Assembly (NCBI GenBank): GCA_040902535.1
Contig: JBBDXD010000010.1
Span: 62,001 to 126,000, forward strand
Direction: 5' to 3'
Length of the DNA: 64,000 nucleotides
Source of the DNA: Dehalococcoidia bacterium
GTDB taxonomy: Bacteria > Chloroflexota > Dehalococcoidia > DSTF01 > JACRBR01
In this document: in pieces, positions 22,854 through 35,598 of the stretch
Layout: each line of letters opens with the position of its first letter
Numbering within the stretch: the first letter of the stretch is position 1
Notes under the pieces: generated by a model
Told to the model about the DNA's origin: nothing
What the model saw: the letters and a program-made list of their open reading frames with translations, nothing else
The model's database searches: none
Program-made: the position numbers and the translations under genes

Positions 22854-23507
22854 ATGCGCCTGCGCCTCTGCGTGGTCATGGCGCTTGCCTCACTCGCCAT
22901 CGCCTGCAAAGGCGACGACAACGACTTCGACGCCGCCGCCCTGCAACCCGTGCTCGAACGCTCCGCACTCGCCCTCGCCGACCTGCCCGATGACTGGAGC
23001 GAGAACGCCGCCCTCGCGCCGCCCGCCGCCGAGCCCGGCGAACCGATCTTCGGCTACTGCAATCAGCAACTCGCTGCCACCCCGGCCGCCAGCGTCCAGG
23101 CGGGCTTTCAGCGCACCGCCCAGGGCCCCTTCGTCATCACCGCCGTGCGCGCCTTCGCCGATGACGGCGCCACCCGCTTCATGGAGCAGATGAGTGACAT
23201 CGCAACCGAGTGCCGCCGCTGGTCCCAACGAGACGATCGCGGCACCACATCGGAGTGGACGCTCGCTCCGCTTCCCGATGCGAGCGCTGATGGTGCGGTC
23301 GCCTTCCACGTCGCGGTCACCTACGCCGATGGCCTGTCGCAGACGTCCCACGTCGTGCTGTCACACGCCGGTCAATTCGTCACGGAACTCGTCCACGGAG
23401 CAAGGGCCGATGTCACGGTCCTCGATTTGGCGCTCACGCAGGAACTCTCGACGATCGCACGCGAGCGGCTGGAAGCGGCCGTCTCCGAAGCCTCAGCCGG
23501 CTCCTAG
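22854..23507 (+). CDS. Lipoprotein of unknown function
   Basis: Product of 217 residues with a lipoprotein signal ending Leu-Ala-Ile-Ala-Cys-Lys-Gly-Asp. The mature part is an alpha-beta domain with no firm match; it has three further Cys and resembles small extracytoplasmic sensor-like domains in general layout. It directly follows the cohesin gene at 22199 (one untranslated base), so the two are translated from one transcript. The last 4 bases overlap the convergent gene. Confidence 0.6.
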
Positions 23508-26500
23508 AGACAGGGGACAAAGCTGAAGATCCGGCGCGCCATCTGCAGGAAGTCGCCCGTCGTGTTCACATTGCCGTTCTTGTCAAGGTCGTACAGCATC
23601 GTCTTCACCGGGAAGTTGAACATCGCCTTCGCATAGATCAACAGGTCACCGGTCGAATTCACCGTCCCCGTGCCGTCGACGTCCAGCACTTCCTGGCAGT
23701 CGCCGATGCCATCCCCGTCCGTGTCCACCAGCGCCGGATCCGTGCCCCAGCCACGCCGCTCCCATCCGTTGAGCAGCCCGTCGCCGTCGTCGTCGAGATC
23801 TTCGTCGGCAGGCTCCGCCGGCACCGACGTGTGATCGCGCGGGTTTGTCCCCTGTGCGCACTCGTAACCATCGAGCGCGCCGTCGCCATCCGTATCCCAC
23901 GAAGGCCCGTTGTCTCCTGTGTCGAAGCCGTCTTCCGGCGCCGGGTCGCCGTCACCGTCGTCGTCATTCGTCAGGTCCCCGCGCGCCGGGCTCGGGTGTC
24001 CGGCCGCCAGCCCCGTGAAGGCGCCGCACACCAGTGGGTCCTCGGCGTCATCCGGGAGCAGATCGTTGTCGTCGTCCAGGTCGCAGGCGTCACCGAGCGC
24101 ATCCGCATTCGCCACCGTCGTGTCGATTGATGCCGTCGCCGGGCCATTGTCGTGTGGCAACGCGTCGAAGTTCGCCTGGTCGGCGTTCTCCACCAGCACG
24201 CAATTGTCCACATCGTCGCCGATGCCGTCGCCGTCCGTGTCGGGCGCCGGCGTGCTCGTCACGGTGGGCGTCGGTGTGTGCTCCACCACCGTCGGCGTCG
24301 GTGTGAAGGTCGGTACCGCGGTGTTGGTCGCGGTCGGAGTGTCCGTCGCCGTCGGCACGGCCGTGTCCGTCGCCGTCGCCGTTGGTGTCTGCGTATCCGT
24401 CGCGGTGGCGACGGCCGTGTGCGTCGGCGATGGCGTGGCGGTCGCGATGGGCACAGACGTGTTCGTCGCGGTCGGCTGCGACGTGTTGGTCGCCGTCGGC
24501 ACTGGCGTGTTCGTCGCGGTCGGCACCGGCGTGTTCGTGCGCGTCGGCGACGGTGTAACCGTCGCCGTGCGCGTTGCTGACGCCGTCGCCGTATGAGTCC
24601 GAGTGGCCGTAGCCGTCGGCGTTGGATCGACGAACGTCGCGTTATACGTCGCGGTCGCGCCCGCCGTGATGATGACGCAGCCGACAATCGGCGGCGTGCA
24701 CGATCCGTGTACGCCCGACCACGCACTGAAATAGACGTTGCCGCCGCCCGGATTCTGCGGCGACGGTGCCAACAGCGTGTGCTCCGAGTTCCGCGGCACG
24801 CTGCGCGTGAACGGTACCGTCTGCGTCGTGCCATCGACGGTGATCTGGATTCCCGTCCGGTTCGACGTGAGCGTGAGGTCGACGCGGTTTGGCGTGATCG
24901 AGATCGATTCGCTGTCCTGCAAGCCGCCGCTGTCCGACACGGTCAACGTGATCGTGTAGAACGTGAAGTCGCCGTGGTCGTCGGCGCCGATCTGACCGCC
25001 GCTGCCGGTCGGCTGAGACTCGAGGTGATTGTGGCAGTTGATGAACTCCACCTCGCTGCAGTGCTCAAGGAGGACCGTCCACTGCAGGCCGGTGCCGGAC
25101 AGCGTGCCGTCCTCCGGGTCCGTGCCCGTACCGCTGAACGCGATGATGTCGCCGACGTCGTAGCGGCCGCCATCAGTCGGCGTCACGATGTCCGCCGTCG
25201 GGGCGTTGTTGCCGACCGAAATGTCCACGATGGCGCTGTCAGTCAGGTTGAGCGGGTCGGTGACGGTCAGCGTCGCGGTGTAGTCGCCGTCGTCCGTGTA
25301 CTCGTGCGACGGGTTCGGCAAGGTCGATGTCGCGCCATCGCCGAAGTCCCAATCGTAGGTGATCGCCTGCCCGCCATCGGGATCGCCGGATCCGGCGCTC
25401 GTGAAGTTCACCGTCAGCGGCGCATCGCCTGAGGTGGGCGAACCACCGGCGACGGCCACCGGCGGCCGGTTGTCACCGATGAAGCGGATCCGCCGGATCT
25501 CCCCGCCGTCAAGCGCCAGGTAGTAGACGTCACCGCCGGGGCCAACTTCGATCTGCACCGGTCCGGCCCCGTTGCTCGTGAAAACGTCGTCACTTCCCGG
25601 GATCATGTTGTTCGACGCGTCGACCTTGAGCACGCTGATCTCGTCGCGCGCATAGTCGCCGAAGAAATACGTATTCTGAAACGCCGCGCTGTAGCCGTTC
25701 ACGCCGGTGAACTGACCGCCGACGACGGCTGAACTCGGCGGGTGCTCGTACGCGTGGAGCGGCAACTCTGCCGTGCCGAGGTCGTAAAGGTCCTGGCATT
25801 CCGAGAACGCGGCGTACCCGTCCTGCTCGAAGGGACCCTCGTAGCATGGCCAGCCAAGGTTGTCGCCGGCGTTGATGACGTTGATCTCTTCCCAGTCGTT
25901 CCACCCGACGTCACCGCTGAAGATGACGTTCGTGCCCGGCTGGAAATTGAAGCGGAACGCGTTACGCAGGCCCATCGCCCACACCTTCGACTCGTTATCG
26001 TTCGCGTCGCCCGTCCAGAACGGGTTGTCCGCCAACCCGTCGCCCGTGTCCGGGTTCACGCGCAGGATCTTGCCAGCAAGGCTCGTAACGTCCTGGACGC
26101 GAACGGCGCGCGAGTCGACGGTCACGTAACTGGCGCCGTCGCCGGTCGTGACGTAGAGCATCTCGTCGGGACCGAACCGCAGATTGCCGATGGCGTGGCT
26201 GAAGTGATCGACCGGAATGCAGTCGATGTTTTCCGGCCAGACGCGCTCGCCACCGCTCATCTCGTCGCACGAGGGGTCGGCCGCCGTCGTCGCGAACGTG
26301 CCCAGCAGCACTTCCCGCGTCGCGGGGTTTGCCACGTTTCCGGACGGCGTGTTGGCGCGGACGCGCATCACCTTGTTCGTCTTCGGACCGTTCGGGTCGT
26401 TCTCATTGTGTTCGTGCGTGTACGCCAGGTACACCCAGCCGTTCGTCGCGAAGTCCGGGTCGAGCGTCATGCCCAGCAGCCCGCGGTCCTGTACGTCGTT

Positions 26501-27532
26501 GACGTCCGGCACCGTGTAGTAGTTGTGGAGCGTCGTCCCGTCCCACACCTTCACCTCGTCGTACCGGTAGGCGATGAAGATGCGGCCGTCGGGCGCGAAC
26601 TCAAAGACCGTGGGAATGAACGCCGGCAAGTTGTCGACGACGACGTCCTCCACGAAGCCGCCCAGGTCCGGACGGAACTCGAAATCGAAAAATATCTGCG
26701 CCCCGCCCGCGTTCTCGTAGTACTCGACGACGACCGTATGATTCCCGGCCGTCATCTGTTTATTGGCCGAATGCTCTGTGGGCCCCTGGTCGATCCAGTA
26801 GTCGAGGATCAGCTCACTGTCGACGTACACGCGCACGCCATCGTCGCTCAGTGCGTTGAACTGATAGACGCCTTCCTGGAACGCCATCGTGCGCGTCCAC
26901 CGCACGCTGAACGTGTTGTTTGCGATAACGCCGGGAAACGGCGATCCCGGTGCCGTGTCGTTCCAGATGAATGCGATCGCCTCGCCGTCGTTGCGCGTGC
27001 GTTCCGGCGTGCCTACGAGGTTCGCGTCGTCAAAGTACTCCGCCTGCCATCCCTGCGGGATCGTGTTCACGTCTTGAATCGTCGCGATGATCGTCGCGGC
27101 GTTCACGACGTCGTAAAGTTCAACCTTGATCGTGTTCGCGCCACTGAGCTGCCGGTCGACGAAGTACGTCGTCGGCCCCTGGTCGACCCACGCGTCGAGA
27201 ATGAGCACGCCGTCGTCGTACACGCGCACGCCATCGTCGGCGGTGACCGTAATCCGATACATGGCGTTCGCATAGCTATCGGCGCGCTCGAACTTCGCGC
27301 TCCAGTTGTCCGCGGTGGTCGTTCCGCCGGGCGATCCGGAGAAGAACTCGTCTAGATCCGCCCCGTAGTCCGCCGTGTGACGCACGGTCCCGTTGACGGT
27401 CAGGTTGTTGTAGAACGTGCCTGTCCACGTGCCGGCCGCGGCCTCAACCTCGTGAGGCGCGCGCGCAGGCACCAGCGCGAGCGCCGCCAGCACCATGAGC
27501 GTCAACGTGAAGACAACCGTCTTCGCGGGCAT
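23504..27532 (-). CDS. PA14-sugar dehydrogenase-like propeller-PKD protein with dockerin-like end
   Basis: Product of 1,342 residues; the internal ATG at 27532 has GGGAG 5 bases upstream and starts the signal peptide. Two PA14 domains come first (about 33-160 and 160-295; each has Asp-Asp-Gly-Val-Arg-Val-Tyr). A six-bladed propeller of the glucose/sorbosone dehydrogenase family follows (about 298-685; Thr-Thr-Gly-Asp-Gly-Ala, Gly-Leu-Arg-Asn-Ala-Phe, Gly-Trp-x-Asp-x-x-Glu-Ile-Asn). Then a PKD domain (685-775), further beta domains, a Thr/Pro stalk (about 972-1095), TSP3-like repeats and two Thr-Gly-Asp loops. It could be a PQQ-type sugar oxidoreductase or a carbohydrate-binding enzyme displayed on the scaffold. 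Catalysis is not proven. Confidence 0.82.
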
Positions 27533-27772
27533 GCGTTCTCCCAACTGCCAGGCGGCCGGCGTACCGATCCCGAACAAAGCCAGAAACGTACAACCTGAAG
27601 GAGGCGTTGCAGAAAACGCCGCGCCGGCCCGAAACGCCGGCCGGGGATCTGCGCCGAACCCGCTCGATTCTAACCCAGACGCGTCAAGTTCGTCCGCCCA
27701 AACGTAAAGAAACCCCGGCGCTGTGAACGCAGTCATCCATAGGCCGGGGCATTGGGATGGGCCGCGTGTCTA

Positions 27773-27801
27773 TTGACAGAATGGCTGCCCTCAAGTACGT
27801 T
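27773..27801 (+). promoter_or_regulatory. Promoter upstream of the large scaffold gene
   Basis: TTGACA (27773-27778) and TACGTT (27796-27801) with a 17-base spacer. The transcript would start near 27808, about 160 bases before the coding region, and would meet the terminator at 27849-27875 first. Confidence 0.5.
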
Positions 27802-27848
27802 TGGCTAGCCTGTTTCACAGGTCCCGCCGCACAACGTTGTTCTTCAGG

Positions 27849-27875
27849 GGGAGCCAGAAGGCTTCCCTTTTTTTC
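27849..27875 (+). terminator. Intrinsic terminator inside the scaffold leader
   Basis: An 8-bp stem with one G-T pair (GGGGAGCC, 27849-27856; GGCTTCCC, 27861-27868), an AGAA loop and a run of seven T. It lies between the promoter at 27773 and the scaffold coding region, so it either ends a short RNA of about 68 bases or works as an attenuator. Confidence 0.7.
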
Positions 27876-27935
27876 CGAGAGCCCGCGGTTCGCAATCACC
27901 GTGGGTGAATCACGTTCTGCTTCTTAGGACTCGGC
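27876..27935 (+). promoter_or_regulatory. Structured leader RNA after the terminator
   Basis: CCGAG (27876-27880) can pair with CTCGG (27931-27935), enclosing a 7-bp hairpin (CCCGCGG, 27883-27889, with CCGTGGG, 27900-27906, one G-T pair). With the preceding terminator this is a leader that could switch between folds. No known class is assigned. Confidence 0.35.
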
Positions 27936-27967
27936 ATTAGCAAGGAAGCTGGTGGGGTAGTTGACGG

Positions 27968-30900
27968 TTGCTATTCGGATCGATGCTTTGGCGACTCGCT
28001 GGCGCCATGTTGGCGCGCTCGTCGCGCGCAACGCGGCGGATGCTTCCGGCCGCCCTGCTGCTCGCCGCCGCGACGGCGCTCGCTTGGCTGCTCTTCACCT
28101 CAACGTCCTCCCTCAAAGCATCGCCTGACGATACAGGTCTTCTCAGTCCTTCACTCGAGTCCGTAGGAAGCGGCGATGGGTTCGAAGCCAATCCCGAGAA
28201 CGCCTTCATGGATGACGGTATCGCCGCGTCCAACATCGATGGTGCGGGCGACAGCCATCTCTACTTCGGCTATCCCATCGCCTTGCCATCCTCAACGCTC
28301 GTCGAAGGTGTCGAGATCCGCGCCGACTGGTGGATGGATTCGGTTGACGGGACGAGCAACCTGACGATCGATCTGTCCTGGGATGGTGGCGCGAGCTGGA
28401 CGTCAACTCAGGCCACGTCACTCGAAGATACAAGTGAGCGCACCGACATCCTCGGCGGTCCCGCCGACACATGGGGACGATCATGGTCGCCGCAGGAACT
28501 CGAAAGCCTCAGCGTGCGCGTCACCGCCAGTAGCGACGATCCCGCCCGCGATTTCCACCTCGACTGGATTGCGGTGCGTATCTTTTATTCATCGATTCCA
28601 ACGCCGACCCATACGGCGACGCCCACCGAAACGGCGACCACCGTCCCGACCGCCTCTGACACGCCGACGCCAACCGAAACGGCAGTCGCGACGGATACCC
28701 CGACGCCAACGCCTACGGAAACCGAAACGCCGACCGCCACCGAAACGGCGACCGCCGTCCCAACCGCCACTGACACGCCGACGCCAACCGAGACGGCAGT
28801 CGCGACGGATACCCCGACGCCAACACCTACTGAAACCGAAACGCCGACCGCCACCGAAACGGCGACCGCCGTCCCGACGGCCACCGACACGCCGACGCCA
28901 ACCGAGACGGCAGTCGCGACGGATACCGCAACGCCAACGCCTACGGAAACCGAAACGCCGACCGCCACCGAAACAGCGACCGCCGTCCCGACCGCCACCG
29001 ACACGCCCACGCCGACCGAGACGGCAGTCGCGACGGATACCCCGACGCCAACGCCTACCGCCACCGAAACAGCGACCGCCGTCCCGACCGCCACCGACAC
29101 GCCCACGCCGACCGAGACGGCAGTCGCGACGGATACCCCGACGCCAACGCCTACCGCCACCGAAACAGCGACCGCCGTCCCGACCGCCACCGACACGCCT
29201 ACGCCGACCGAGACGGCAGTCGCGACGGATACCCCGACGCCAACGCCTACTGAAACCGAAACGCCGACCGCCGTCCCAACCGCCACTGACACGCCCACGC
29301 CGACCGCCACGCCTGACGGCACCGAAACGCCGACGCCAACGCCCACCGAGACCGAGACGCCCGCCGCTACCGAAACGGCGACCGCCGTCCCGACCGCCAC
29401 CGACACGCCCACGCCGACCGCCACGCCTGACGGCACCGAAACGCCGACGCCAACGCCCACCGAGACCGAGACGCCCGCCGCTACCGAAACGGCGACCGCC
29501 GTCCCGACCGCCACCGACACGCCCACGCCGACCGCCACGCCTGACGGCACCGAAACGCCAACGGCCACCGAGACCGAAACACCGACCGCCACCGAAACGC
29601 CGACGGACACTGCCACGCCGCAACCCGCTGGACAGACGACGCTGACAGCATCCGTACAGGCAGGCGCAACAGAGATCGCCGTCGCCGATACGGCGGGTTT
29701 CACGACGGGCGACACCATCGTCATCAACCCCGGCGGAGCAAATGAGGAGACGAATGAAGTAGCGGGTTTCGCGTCGATCCTGCTCGTGACGCCATTGCTG
29801 CAAGATCACGACGCGGGCGAGACGGTCATGGTGCTGGAGGAGGCAACCCCGACAGCGACGGCTACAGCAAGCGTTGCAGGACCGATACAGCGAATTCTTC
29901 CTACGAACCAGGTCATCTCGCTGCCTGGGACGTTCAGCACGGACATCACCGTTGAACAGGTCCCGAATCTCGGTGCGTACGAGGCGATCGTCAACTATGA
30001 CAGCGCCGTCGTAAGTCCGACGACCGCGATTAACAGTACATTTCTGGGAAGCACGGGCAGGAGCGTCTTCTGTCCGGCGCCATCCTCTACCCTCGTATCC
30101 GGCACGATCCTGCAGTTTCGCTTCGGCTGCGTGACGACAGGGACAACGCCCGCCGGCCCGAACGGTGCGGGCCTGCTCGCGACGATCAATTGGGACGCAG
30201 TCGCCTTGGGCACCAGTGCCCTAATTCTCGCGCCGTCGCTCGCGAATGAGTTGGGCGACGATATCCCCGCTACCGGATTCAGCGCGAGTGTTGAAGTCAG
30301 CGATGGACCGACGTCCACCCCCACGCCAACGAACACCCCATGTCCTGGCGGCAGCTGTCCCACGGATACGCCGACGCCGAGCCCGACAAGCACGCCCGTG
30401 ATCAACTGCGGCCCAAGCGGCGCGACCGTCTGCTTCCTCCCACAGGATGACTCGCACGCAAAGGGCGCGTTGTTTACCGCCGCCGTTGCAATGCAGGCCG
30501 GCGCAAATCTCGGCGCCTTCGAATTTCAGCTGGCCTACGACCCGGAGGTTATGAGCGCAACCGGAGCGGTCCCAGGGTCATTCCTCTCTAGCTCGGGTAG
30601 AGCCGTGAATTGCCTTGTCCCGGTGCTCTCAGACGGGCTCGTCCGGTTCACGTGCGTGACGCTTGGGGATACACCCATCGCCGGTGCTTCCGGCAACGGC
30701 ATCCTTGCGTTCGTCGAGTTCTCCGCTGTTGAAGAGGGTTTTTCGATCCTCGATCTTCAGGACGTGACCCTGACGGATCCGTCTGGACGAGTGATCCCCG
30801 CAGCCGCCGTCGATGGAACGCGGACGATCTTGCCGTGCCTGGGTGTCTGTCCGTCGCCGACATCCACGCCAACTTCAACACCATCACCGACGCCCACCAA

Positions 30901-33900
30901 TACCGCGACCGAGACGTCGACGAGCACCCCCTGCGCCGGACCATGTCCCACCGACACGCCGACGCCCACGTTCACTGTTACGCCTACGCCCACCACGACT
31001 CCTACACCCACCACGACCGTTCCGCTCGCGCTTCGCGTCAGCCCTGTGTCCCAGAACGAGTTGGCCTCACTGAGTTTTGCGGTCGATGTCGTTGTGGAGA
31101 ACGTGGTCAACCTGGGCGCCTACGAGATCGGCCTGCTCTACGATTCTGCTTTGATCTCCTTGGTCTCGGCGGTCGACGGTCCGTTTCTGGGTAGTACCGG
31201 GCGCGAAGTGAGTTGTCCATCGTTTTCAGATGGTGCCGGAAGCGTCCGCTTTGGCTGCGCAACTCTCGGCTCGGTTGCTCCTGGCGCATCCGGGACAGGC
31301 GTCCTCGTTACGTTCACCTTCACCGGCATCCAGACAGGCACGTCTGACCTCACGCTCAGCGCTCCGATCCTGGCGGACGTCGCGGCCAACCCGGCGTCAA
31401 TCGGAGTCATTGAATCCGGCACCGTCACGATCGATCCGTGTCCAGGCACCTGCCCCACTCCCACGTCAACTCCCACACCCGGCACACCTACGCCGACCGC
31501 TACGCCCGGCGGCGTGTCGCAGGTTGGTGTAGCGCCGGTGAGCCTCACTGCCCCGGTGGGCACAGAATTCTACGTAGATGTGTTGATCTCCAACAGCGCA
31601 AACATTGGTTCGTACGAAGTCCTGCTGCGTACGGCCTTCAATGAGCTGGGTGAGGTCGAGTTCGGCGTACTTGAATTTGTCCAATTTACGGACGGTCCCT
31701 TCTTGGAAAGCTCCGGAAGGATCGCCACCTGTCTCGACCCCGCCATCGATTCGATAAGCGTGCGGGTGGGATGCGTCACGACCGGGCCTAACCCGCCGGG
31801 TCCCGCGGGAGCAGGCGTCCTCGCGACCGTCAGATTTCGCGTGTTAAAGCCTTCGACGCGCCCAATGTTGATCGCGGTTGATCCGCTGACCGGCGGTCTT
31901 AGCGATCCGCTGGGCGCGCCGCTGCCATTCACGGTCTCGGGTGACACCACCGTGACCATTCCGGCTGCGGGTTCCGGATCAACGACCGCCGGTGGATTGA
32001 TCCGTTCGCATGGCGCTGGAACTCCCGGCCCCGGAATCAAACCTCCTGGCGCTATCGCTGCCAAGGACGCCGCCGGACAAATGAAACTCGTCATGCCGCC
32101 GCTCTCCGCCGACGCTGACATCGACTTGAATCCGGCAATTCGATCCGAACCTACGCGGCATCCTTATCGCGCGGCGTTGCTCACGATCGCGGCGACGGCT
32201 GCCTTGATCGCAGCGATCGCCTTGTTCTGGACGTACGCGCCTCGAGAACTCTTCCGCCCTCTATCCGGTGCAGCGACGGCCGCCGTACTGCTACTTGTCT
32301 TTATGACGCTGCCGGCACAATTGAAGCTGAGTGCAGCTAATGTTGTCGCGGTGTTCAAGTCACCTTCGTCAGCAAACCTCTTTATCGGCGGCCCTCAACT
32401 CGTCATTGAGGAGAGGATCGCCATAGTGACTGAACCGGGACTTGCGTCGTTCGAAGTCGAAGTGGCCTATCACTCCGGCGTCGTCGACGTGGACGTTGCT
32501 GAGGGCCCATTCCTCCAGAGCTCTGGACTCGACACGACCTGTACAAAGACGAGCCTTGCGAGTAACCGGTTCGTCTTCTCGTGCGCGCTCGACGGCGATC
32601 CTCCCGCTGGTCCGACTGGCGAAGGCGTCATCGCCATATTGAGCGTCTACCCCGATAGTTCGCTCATGCTGCGCCCAACGAGGGAGAACGGCGTTCTCAC
32701 CGTTCTTGACAATGTGCGAACCGGTGTCCGTCTCTTCGACGCGTCCGGCGATGCGCTCGATGCCGGATCCGTGGGCGATGCTTTAATCGCCGTGCGCGCC
32801 CTCGAGGGCGATCTGAACAAGGACTGCATCGTCAACGTGATCGATGATCAACTGATCTCCGTCCGATATCTGGCGCGACCCGGAAACCTCTGGTACCAGC
32901 CCTACTACGATCTTGAACCGTCGTTCACCGACGACGACATCGATATCAAGGATCTGCAGTTCGTGTACGGACGCAATGGAAGCACGTGCCAAAAGCCGGT
33001 TCCTTCGCAGACTCCTCCACCGGGGACCACGCCCGTAATTCCGTCCACAGCGACCCCGTCGCCGTCCGCAACGGCGAGCCGGACGCCGACCGACACCGTC
33101 ATCGCCACCGCCACCAACACCGCCGTCCCGACGGCGACCCGCACGCCCACGCCGACCGACACCGCCATCGCCACCGCCAGCAACACCGCCGTCCCGACGG
33201 CGACCCGCACGCCCACGCCGACCGACACCGCCATCGCCACCGCCACCAACACCGCCGTCCCGGCGGCGACCCACACGCCCACGCCGACCAACACCGCCAT
33301 CGCCACCGCCACCAACACCGCCGTCCCGACGGCGACCCACACGCCCACCGCAACGGCGACGCGCACACCAACCAGAACGCCTTCACCCACACGGACAGCC
33401 ACGCGCACCGCAACCGCCAGTCGCACACCCGCCGCCACCAGGACGCCTACCGCGACGGCGACACCGGAAGCGCGCACCGCTACCGCGACCCGCACCGCTG
33501 TGCCCACCGCCACCAACACACAGACCGCTACATCGACAGCGATCGCTGCAACGCGCACGCCGCGCGCTACGCACACCGCGGCCATTACGGCAACGCGCGC
33601 GCCTGAAACCGCGACGCGGACGGCGACGAAGACCGCCGTCCCGACCGCCACCAACACCCGCACCGCGACGGCAACCCGCACCGCCGCGCCGACAGCCACG
33701 CGCACGCGTACCTTCACGCCAACCGCGACGAAGACCGCCGTCCCGACCGCCACCAACACCCGCACCGCGACGGCAACCCGCACCGCCGCGCCGACAGCCA
33801 CGCGCACGCGTACCTTCACGCCAACCGCGACGAAGACCGCCGTCCCGACCGCCACCAACACGCGGACCGCGACCTCCACGGTCGTCGCGGCAACCCGCAC

Positions 33901-34618
33901 GCCTGACGCGACGCGCACGACGGTCGTCACTGTGACCCGCACCCCCGGCGTCACGCGCACCGTGGTCGTCACCGTGACACGCACAGCCGTCGCCACAGCC
34001 ACCAACACCCGGACGGCCACTGAGACGCAGACGCCAACCGCTGCTAATACGCCAACGGCGACTTCGACGCGGACGCCAACCGCTACGAACACGCACACGG
34101 CGACCGCCACCGCAACGCCTACAGCGACCCAGACCGCGACGCCGACGCGCACGTCCACGACAACGCCTTCGCCGTCGCACACGCCACAGGCGTCCGAAAC
34201 GCCGACGCCGTCCGCCACCTTCGTGCCCTCCAGCACGCCGACTCGGACGTCGACTGCCGTCGCCACGAACACGTCGACGGCCACGCGGACCGCCACGCCC
34301 GGCGCGACGGGCACGGCGGGTGGCGCCACGTCCACGCCACGCTCCGCGACTACAACGCGCACCGGCGTCGTCCCCGCGGCGAGCCGCACCACCGGGCCGG
34401 CCGTCGCGACGCCGACCCGCGTCAACATCGTGCTCGGCGGAGAGCGGACCGCTACGCCTGTGCGCTCCCCCGGTGCGCTGCCGAGGACCGGCGTTTACGA
34501 CGTGCAGGACGGCCGGACGTCGGGCGCCCAGTTGATCGCCACGCTGGTCGTGCTCGGACTTGGTGCTCTCGCAGCCACCGCGTTCATAGTGCGGCGCAAT
34601 GCAACGACGAAGCGCTAA
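27968..34618 (+). CDS. Giant five-cohesin scaffold protein with dockerin and LPRTG anchor
   Basis: Product of up to 2,216 residues; the start is unclear (TTG 27968, or ATG 27983 or 28007). Signal-like segment (about 20-45), beta-sandwich domain (about 60-215), Thr/Pro/Glu stalk (216-550), then four second-type cohesins near 637-780, 811-957, 1018-1156 and 1181-1336, joined by Pro/Thr linkers with Cys. Two hydrophobic segments lie at about 1399-1457, mid-protein. A fifth cohesin (1468-1607) and a dockerin-like end (1608-1677) precede a 470-residue Thr/Ala/Arg stalk, then Leu-Pro-Arg-Thr-Gly at 2171, a membrane helix and a basic tail. It has the most cohesins in the window and is the natural central scaffold. 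Confidence 0.82.
28681..29560 (+). repeat. 114-bp tandem repeat coding for the first stalk
   Basis: The same landmark (GGCAGTCGCGAC) recurs at 28681, 28795, 28909 and 29023, a 114-bp (38-residue) period, then at 29119 and 29215 with 96-bp periods that have lost 6 codons. A variant (GACGGCACCG) repeats at 29315, 29429 and 29543, again every 114 bp. All steps are multiples of three. Copy number is likely to vary. Confidence 0.85.
33101..33364 (+). repeat. 66-bp tandem repeat in the second stalk
   Basis: Units begin at 33101, 33167, 33233 and 33299, exactly 66 bp (22 residues) apart. Each encodes Thr/Ala-rich sequence with Asn-Thr-Ala-Val-Pro. Confidence 0.8.
33628..33865 (+). repeat. 102-bp tandem repeat in the second stalk
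   Basis: Units begin at 33628, 33730 and 33832, exactly 102 bp (34 residues) apart. The first two are identical as far as I can read; the third breaks off after about 35 bases. Near-identity suggests recent duplication. Confidence 0.8.
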
Positions 34619-35535: not shown

Positions 35536-35564
35536 TTGACCCGCCTCCGGCGCAGGGTTACACT
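35536..35564 (+). promoter_or_regulatory. Heat-shock operon promoter
   Basis: TTGACC (35536-35541) and TACACT (35559-35564) with a 17-base spacer. The CIRCE operator begins 7 bases after the -10 box, overlapping the expected transcription start, so HrcA binding would block initiation. Confidence 0.75.
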
Positions 35565-35571
35565 TTTCGCA

Positions 35572-35598
35572 TTAGCACTCTAACCGGGAGAGTGCTAA
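35572..35598 (+). promoter_or_regulatory. CIRCE operator
   Basis: A perfect TTAGCACTC-N9-GAGTGCTAA inverted repeat, the known HrcA binding site. It lies 16 bases before hrcA, so the operon is autoregulated. Confidence 0.97.

Follow-up and report, generated by a model that had tools for sequence, protein, structure and literature searches.

Background

A terminator in the leader of a gene is a common arrangement, and the mechanism that it implies is in itself ordinary. In Rhodobacter sphaeroides, the abundant small RNA UpsM arises by termination in the leader of mraZ, and about 1% read-through makes the mRNA (PMC5089854). Terminator-type riboswitches and T-boxes, as represented in Rfam, likewise have a terminator in the leader. 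To our knowledge, the regulation of cohesin and dockerin genes outside the Firmicutes has hardly been studied. Here we describe the leader of a cohesin-repeat scaffold gene in which a strong predicted terminator lies between a promoter-like site and the start codon. If our reading is true, premature termination in the leader limits how much of a very large, secreted scaffold protein is made in a little-studied, probably chloroflexotal lineage (Chloroflexota), and a small RNA is made there. The stretch of DNA analysed (hereafter the window, 64 kb; G000:C10:62001-126000) belongs to a genome of 3.18 Mb in 28 contigs, and positions are those of the window unless a contig or locus is given.

Results

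A cluster at 300-34618 encodes secreted proteins that carry cohesin- and dockerin-like modules as well as Thr/Pro-rich linkers; one of them is a scaffold with cohesin modules and a dockerin-like segment, and TTGACA promoters followed by leaders of 60-200 nt are found at several genes of this cluster. The scaffold gene (27968-34618, + strand) has two candidate start codons, TTG at 27968 and ATG at 27983, and its product of 2216 aa is the largest in the cluster. The name is fair because modules of the protein match Cohesin (PF00963), one with 3.4e-6 (region 30368-31000) and another with 0.024, in agreement with a preliminary description of this DNA that had spoken of a scaffold gene, the largest of its system. 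Homologues of the N-terminal domain occur in Caldilineaceae, Oscillochloris and Anaerolineales, which points to Chloroflexota as the probable lineage. A divergent gene on the - strand (23504-27532), with PA14, glucose/sorbosone dehydrogenase and PKD domains, has its probable start at 27532, its reading frame being open to 27736, and the nearest + strand gene upstream of the leader ends at 23507. Elsewhere in the window, a perfect CIRCE (35536-35598) directly follows a TTGACC-17-TACACT promoter upstream of hrcA-grpE-dnaK; a half-CIRCE likeness at 27925 was rejected, as the site is incomplete and the true CIRCE lies at 35572.

The leader begins with a sigma-70-like promoter on the + strand (27773-27801), composed of TTGACA (27773-27778), a 17-nt spacer and TACGTT (27796-27801), with transcription predicted to start at about 27808. 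The -35 is perfect and the -10 is weak (3/6 matches), which is why a stricter promoter scan omits the site. On a rough sigma-70 matrix, heuristic only, this promoter scores 14.0 and is the top + strand site in 27533-28010, where the runner-up reaches 8.4; on the same scale, window segments have a 90th percentile of 9.2 and the likely promoters of neighbouring genes mostly fall at 12-17. Many of the high scores elsewhere in the window lie upstream of cluster genes and hrcA, and TTGACA by itself is not enriched in the window over shuffles. The promoter proposed in the preliminary description is confirmed as the best + strand intergenic candidate, with the reservation of its weak -10. At the predicted 5' end of the transcript, the + strand carries a perfect dyad, CCTGT-TTC-ACAGG (27809-27821), which could be either an RNA hairpin or a DNA operator. 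This exact copy of the dyad is unique both in the window and in the genome. Its candidacy as a regulon operator was rejected: near-copies across the genome are no commoner than those of the reversed pattern, and therefore give no sign of a regulon.

Downstream of this promoter, at 27846-27874 on the + strand, lies an intrinsic terminator with a 10-bp stem (27846-27855/27860-27869), an AGAA loop and seven T (27868-27874); the stem is rich in G+C and the T run follows it immediately. A seven-T terminator had previously been placed at 27849-27875, and it is borne out here with coordinates shifted by a few bases. Under a strict definition (a stem of at least 8 bp, at least 4 G-C pairs and six T), the window holds 1 site on both strands taken together, against 0.017 expected from whole-window shuffles, and shuffling the intergenic region 20,000 times produced such a site in 19 cases. 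At the level of sequence, the predicted terminator in the scaffold gene leader is solid.

Runs of seven T are rare in the genome, with 15 in 3.18 Mb. Each of these sites was read individually by eye and submitted to a 40-base stem test, after which 5 of the 15 retained a stem of at least 8 bp, the scaffold leader site included, and most of the others had no good local stem; one, at C19:260212, has a longer hairpin that the 40-base test clipped. Three of the other four sites with a stem lie, as judged by eye, just past genes (C6:145879, C15:25901 and C15:91060), and the fourth lies upstream of an exchanger gene. Given this rarity, the five stems and the three positions at gene ends, seven T with a stem constitute a genuine signal for termination in this genome. 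The fourth site (L082:1470-1502; C1:5695) has its T7 hairpin about 22 nt before a gene for a sodium/calcium exchanger (PF01699) and may either close the preceding unit or be a leader terminator.

These counts bear on the proposal that the hairpin and its T run play no part in transcription, being a product of chance or a stabiliser of the mRNA 5' end. The absence of the terminator from the best homologue of the scaffold gene is consistent with this proposal, but both the low frequency of such sites among shuffles of the region and the position of T7 sites with a stem at gene ends elsewhere in the genome argue against it, and we consider it very unlikely. The terminator may also act as a guard against stray + strand transcription from the divergent promoter region, with a minor regulatory role, as its place in a divergent intergenic region, facing the scaffold gene, would suggest. 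The site is, however, downstream of the best + strand promoter and therefore would stop the scaffold gene's own transcript too, which makes a guard terminator rather unlikely.

A further alternative is a separate gene for a small RNA, with its end at 27874, in which case the scaffold gene is served by its own downstream promoter. The stretch 27808-27875 is indeed predicted to fold like a typical bacterial small RNA, in which an open linker connects a 5' hairpin to a seven-U terminator hairpin. Against a second promoter, the rough matrix detects no promoter-like site above background from 27875 to the start codon, where the best candidate scores 6.2 and has its -10 within the gene; moreover, the RNA has no relatives in 20 near genomes, and the alternative appears doubtful.

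Other hairpins with T runs were noted in leaders of the same genome. One lies in the rplJ 5' leader and ends in T6 (L060 6344-6365, minus strand), the identity of L10 being assigned by Pfam (8.9e-25); feedback control of the rplJ leader by L10 is known in other bacteria. Another locus, upstream of an ABC transporter ATPase (L078:832-1152, contig C3), combines a TTGACA-17-TACTAT promoter, a possible leader ORF of 42 codons (906-1034) and a T-tailed hairpin of 10 bp (1059-1090), and resembles a leader-peptide attenuator.

The part of the leader beyond the terminator had been credited with a second folded element at 27876-27935. One good hairpin of 9 bp (27881-27889/27898-27906, + strand) forms its core and stands out when taken alone (z -3.95 against shuffles), although it was picked after being seen; the whole element is borderline and little above shuffled sequence (z -1.6, p 0.054), and the entire lower leader, 27875-27967, does not differ notably from shuffles (z -1.0, p 0.15). 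The hairpin can thus be retained from the earlier claim, and the second folded element is the weakest part of the observation. A possible pseudoknot on the + strand (27875-27949), pairing CCGAG with CTCGG (27875-27879/27930-27934) and GCTTCTT with AAGGAAGC (27919-27925/27942-27949), was taken as chance, with a similar arrangement arising in 15% of shuffles. An apparent copy of the element at 27713-27765 (a 71% direct repeat) was likewise rejected, there being two copies only, likely by chance. The probable Shine-Dalgarno sequence GGTGGGG (27951-27957) is mostly paired in the folded leader, and therefore a translational effect of the predicted leader fold is possible.

We also considered a ligand-sensing riboswitch or another regulated attenuator, with the second element as part of the switch. 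The position of the terminator in a leader is consistent with such a device, as are the arguable pseudoknot past the terminator and an alternative fold pairing 27783-27795 with 27844-27856, whose energy lies within 1.3 kcal/mol of that of the best fold, for an RNA starting at 27780 only. This alternative fold is, however, equalled by 8% of shuffles, and a start at about 27780 lies inside the promoter spacer, upstream of the -10; the pseudoknot carries the chance level given above. For starts at 27800 and 27808, the best terminator-free fold is 7.8-8.2 kcal/mol worse, a gap no smaller than that obtained with shuffled upstream sequence, so that for these starts shuffles do equally well or better and no mutually exclusive antiterminator is found in the transcript. 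The Rfam search that the preliminary description had called for returned no riboswitch, T-box or ribosomal leader family at the gathering score, nor anything at E<10. Without a match in Rfam, an antiterminator above shuffles or relatives of the leader or its folded elements in the related genomes searched, the earlier suggestion of a riboswitch is not supported; we find no support for regulation of read-through, and a regulated device of this kind is quite unlikely.

To look for relatives of the leader, 99 related genomes, all of other genera, were searched at the DNA level, and only short GC-rich or terminator-like matches were obtained. Two covariance models, R1 for the lower element and R2 for the putative short RNA, were run on 20 genomes and recovered nothing above noise except the window; the best matches outside the window (E 0.33 and 0.04) were inspected and are not leader homologues. 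We then read the leaders of cohesin genes from four other members of the family (G003, L046; G001, L048; G006, L050; G007, L051). All four have TTGACA, a plausible -10 and a long leader. The G001 leader contains a five-T hairpin, which is weaker (-16.4 kcal/mol, z only -1.3), and the leader of G003, which holds the best scaffold homologue, has no terminator-like site, so that the arrangement is not conserved. The G006 and G007 leaders are alike: L050:6160-6770 and L051:1484-1950 share a recognisable long leader upstream of cohesin genes, with hairpins right after the promoter, and they are a better starting point for covariance analysis than the leader in the window. Taken together with the latter, the five leaders permit no meaningful alignment beyond the -35. 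From these sequences, long leaders look common for cohesin genes, and strong terminators do not. It is highly improbable, to our mind, that the leader in the window belongs to a class of regulatory leader RNA not yet described, one that acts on the cohesin scaffold genes of this lineage by premature termination and evolves too fast to be aligned between genera.

Discussion

The leader is laid out as a promoter, about 40 nt, the terminator, about 93 nt and the start codon, and by prediction the terminator thus lies between the sole promoter and the start codon. What can be read from the DNA are the predicted terminator, the promoter-like site, their spacing and the lack of a rival promoter-like site. 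We propose that transcription begins near 27808 and that most polymerases would halt at the T run near 27874, releasing an RNA about 65-70 nt long, in which 23 open nucleotides separate a 5' hairpin from that of the terminator, while a minority would read through into a leader with one more hairpin and produce the scaffold mRNA. We hold this reading, a promoter-proximal intrinsic terminator in the scaffold 5' leader with early stopping, a short RNA and partial read-through, to be probable, if by a modest measure.

Premature termination is favoured because the terminator is far above chance and T7 with a stem is a real signal in this genome, because the top + strand promoter is upstream and none above background follows 27875, because no + strand gene upstream needs terminating, because the same genome has a T-tailed hairpin in the rplJ leader, because the cohesin genes of relatives have TTGACA and a long leader, in G001 with a T5 hairpin, and because UpsM is a proven precedent. 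It is weakened because the -10 is weak, the start codon is uncertain, the best scaffold homologue (G003) does not share the arrangement and no leader homologue was found in the 99 related genomes. Among the meanings offered in the preliminary description, attenuation or a small RNA fits the order of the elements without a second promoter, whereas the riboswitch is unsupported; as the meaning of the predicted leader terminator, attenuation or a small RNA is likely, and plausible.

Compared with known systems, the scaffold leader differs from riboswitches and T-boxes in that no aptamer is matched and no above-chance antiterminator is found for the predicted transcript. It resembles the rplJ leader of the same genome in that a T-tailed hairpin precedes the start codon by some tens of bases, although rplJ is a ribosomal protein gene and its hairpin ends in six T rather than seven. 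The cohesin leaders of the four relatives are like that in the window in their TTGACA and their length, G001 also in its five-T hairpin, yet they cannot be aligned with it past the -35, and that of G003 is without a terminator-like site. UpsM/mraZ was demonstrated experimentally and is conserved in its family, whereas the scaffold leader is predicted and no conservation was found; the leaders measure 268 nt and about 160 nt, respectively, and the genes are unrelated. The likeness to UpsM/mraZ lies in the architecture: the 5' leader is long, and a strong Rho-independent terminator separates the gene from its only promoter (PMC5089854).
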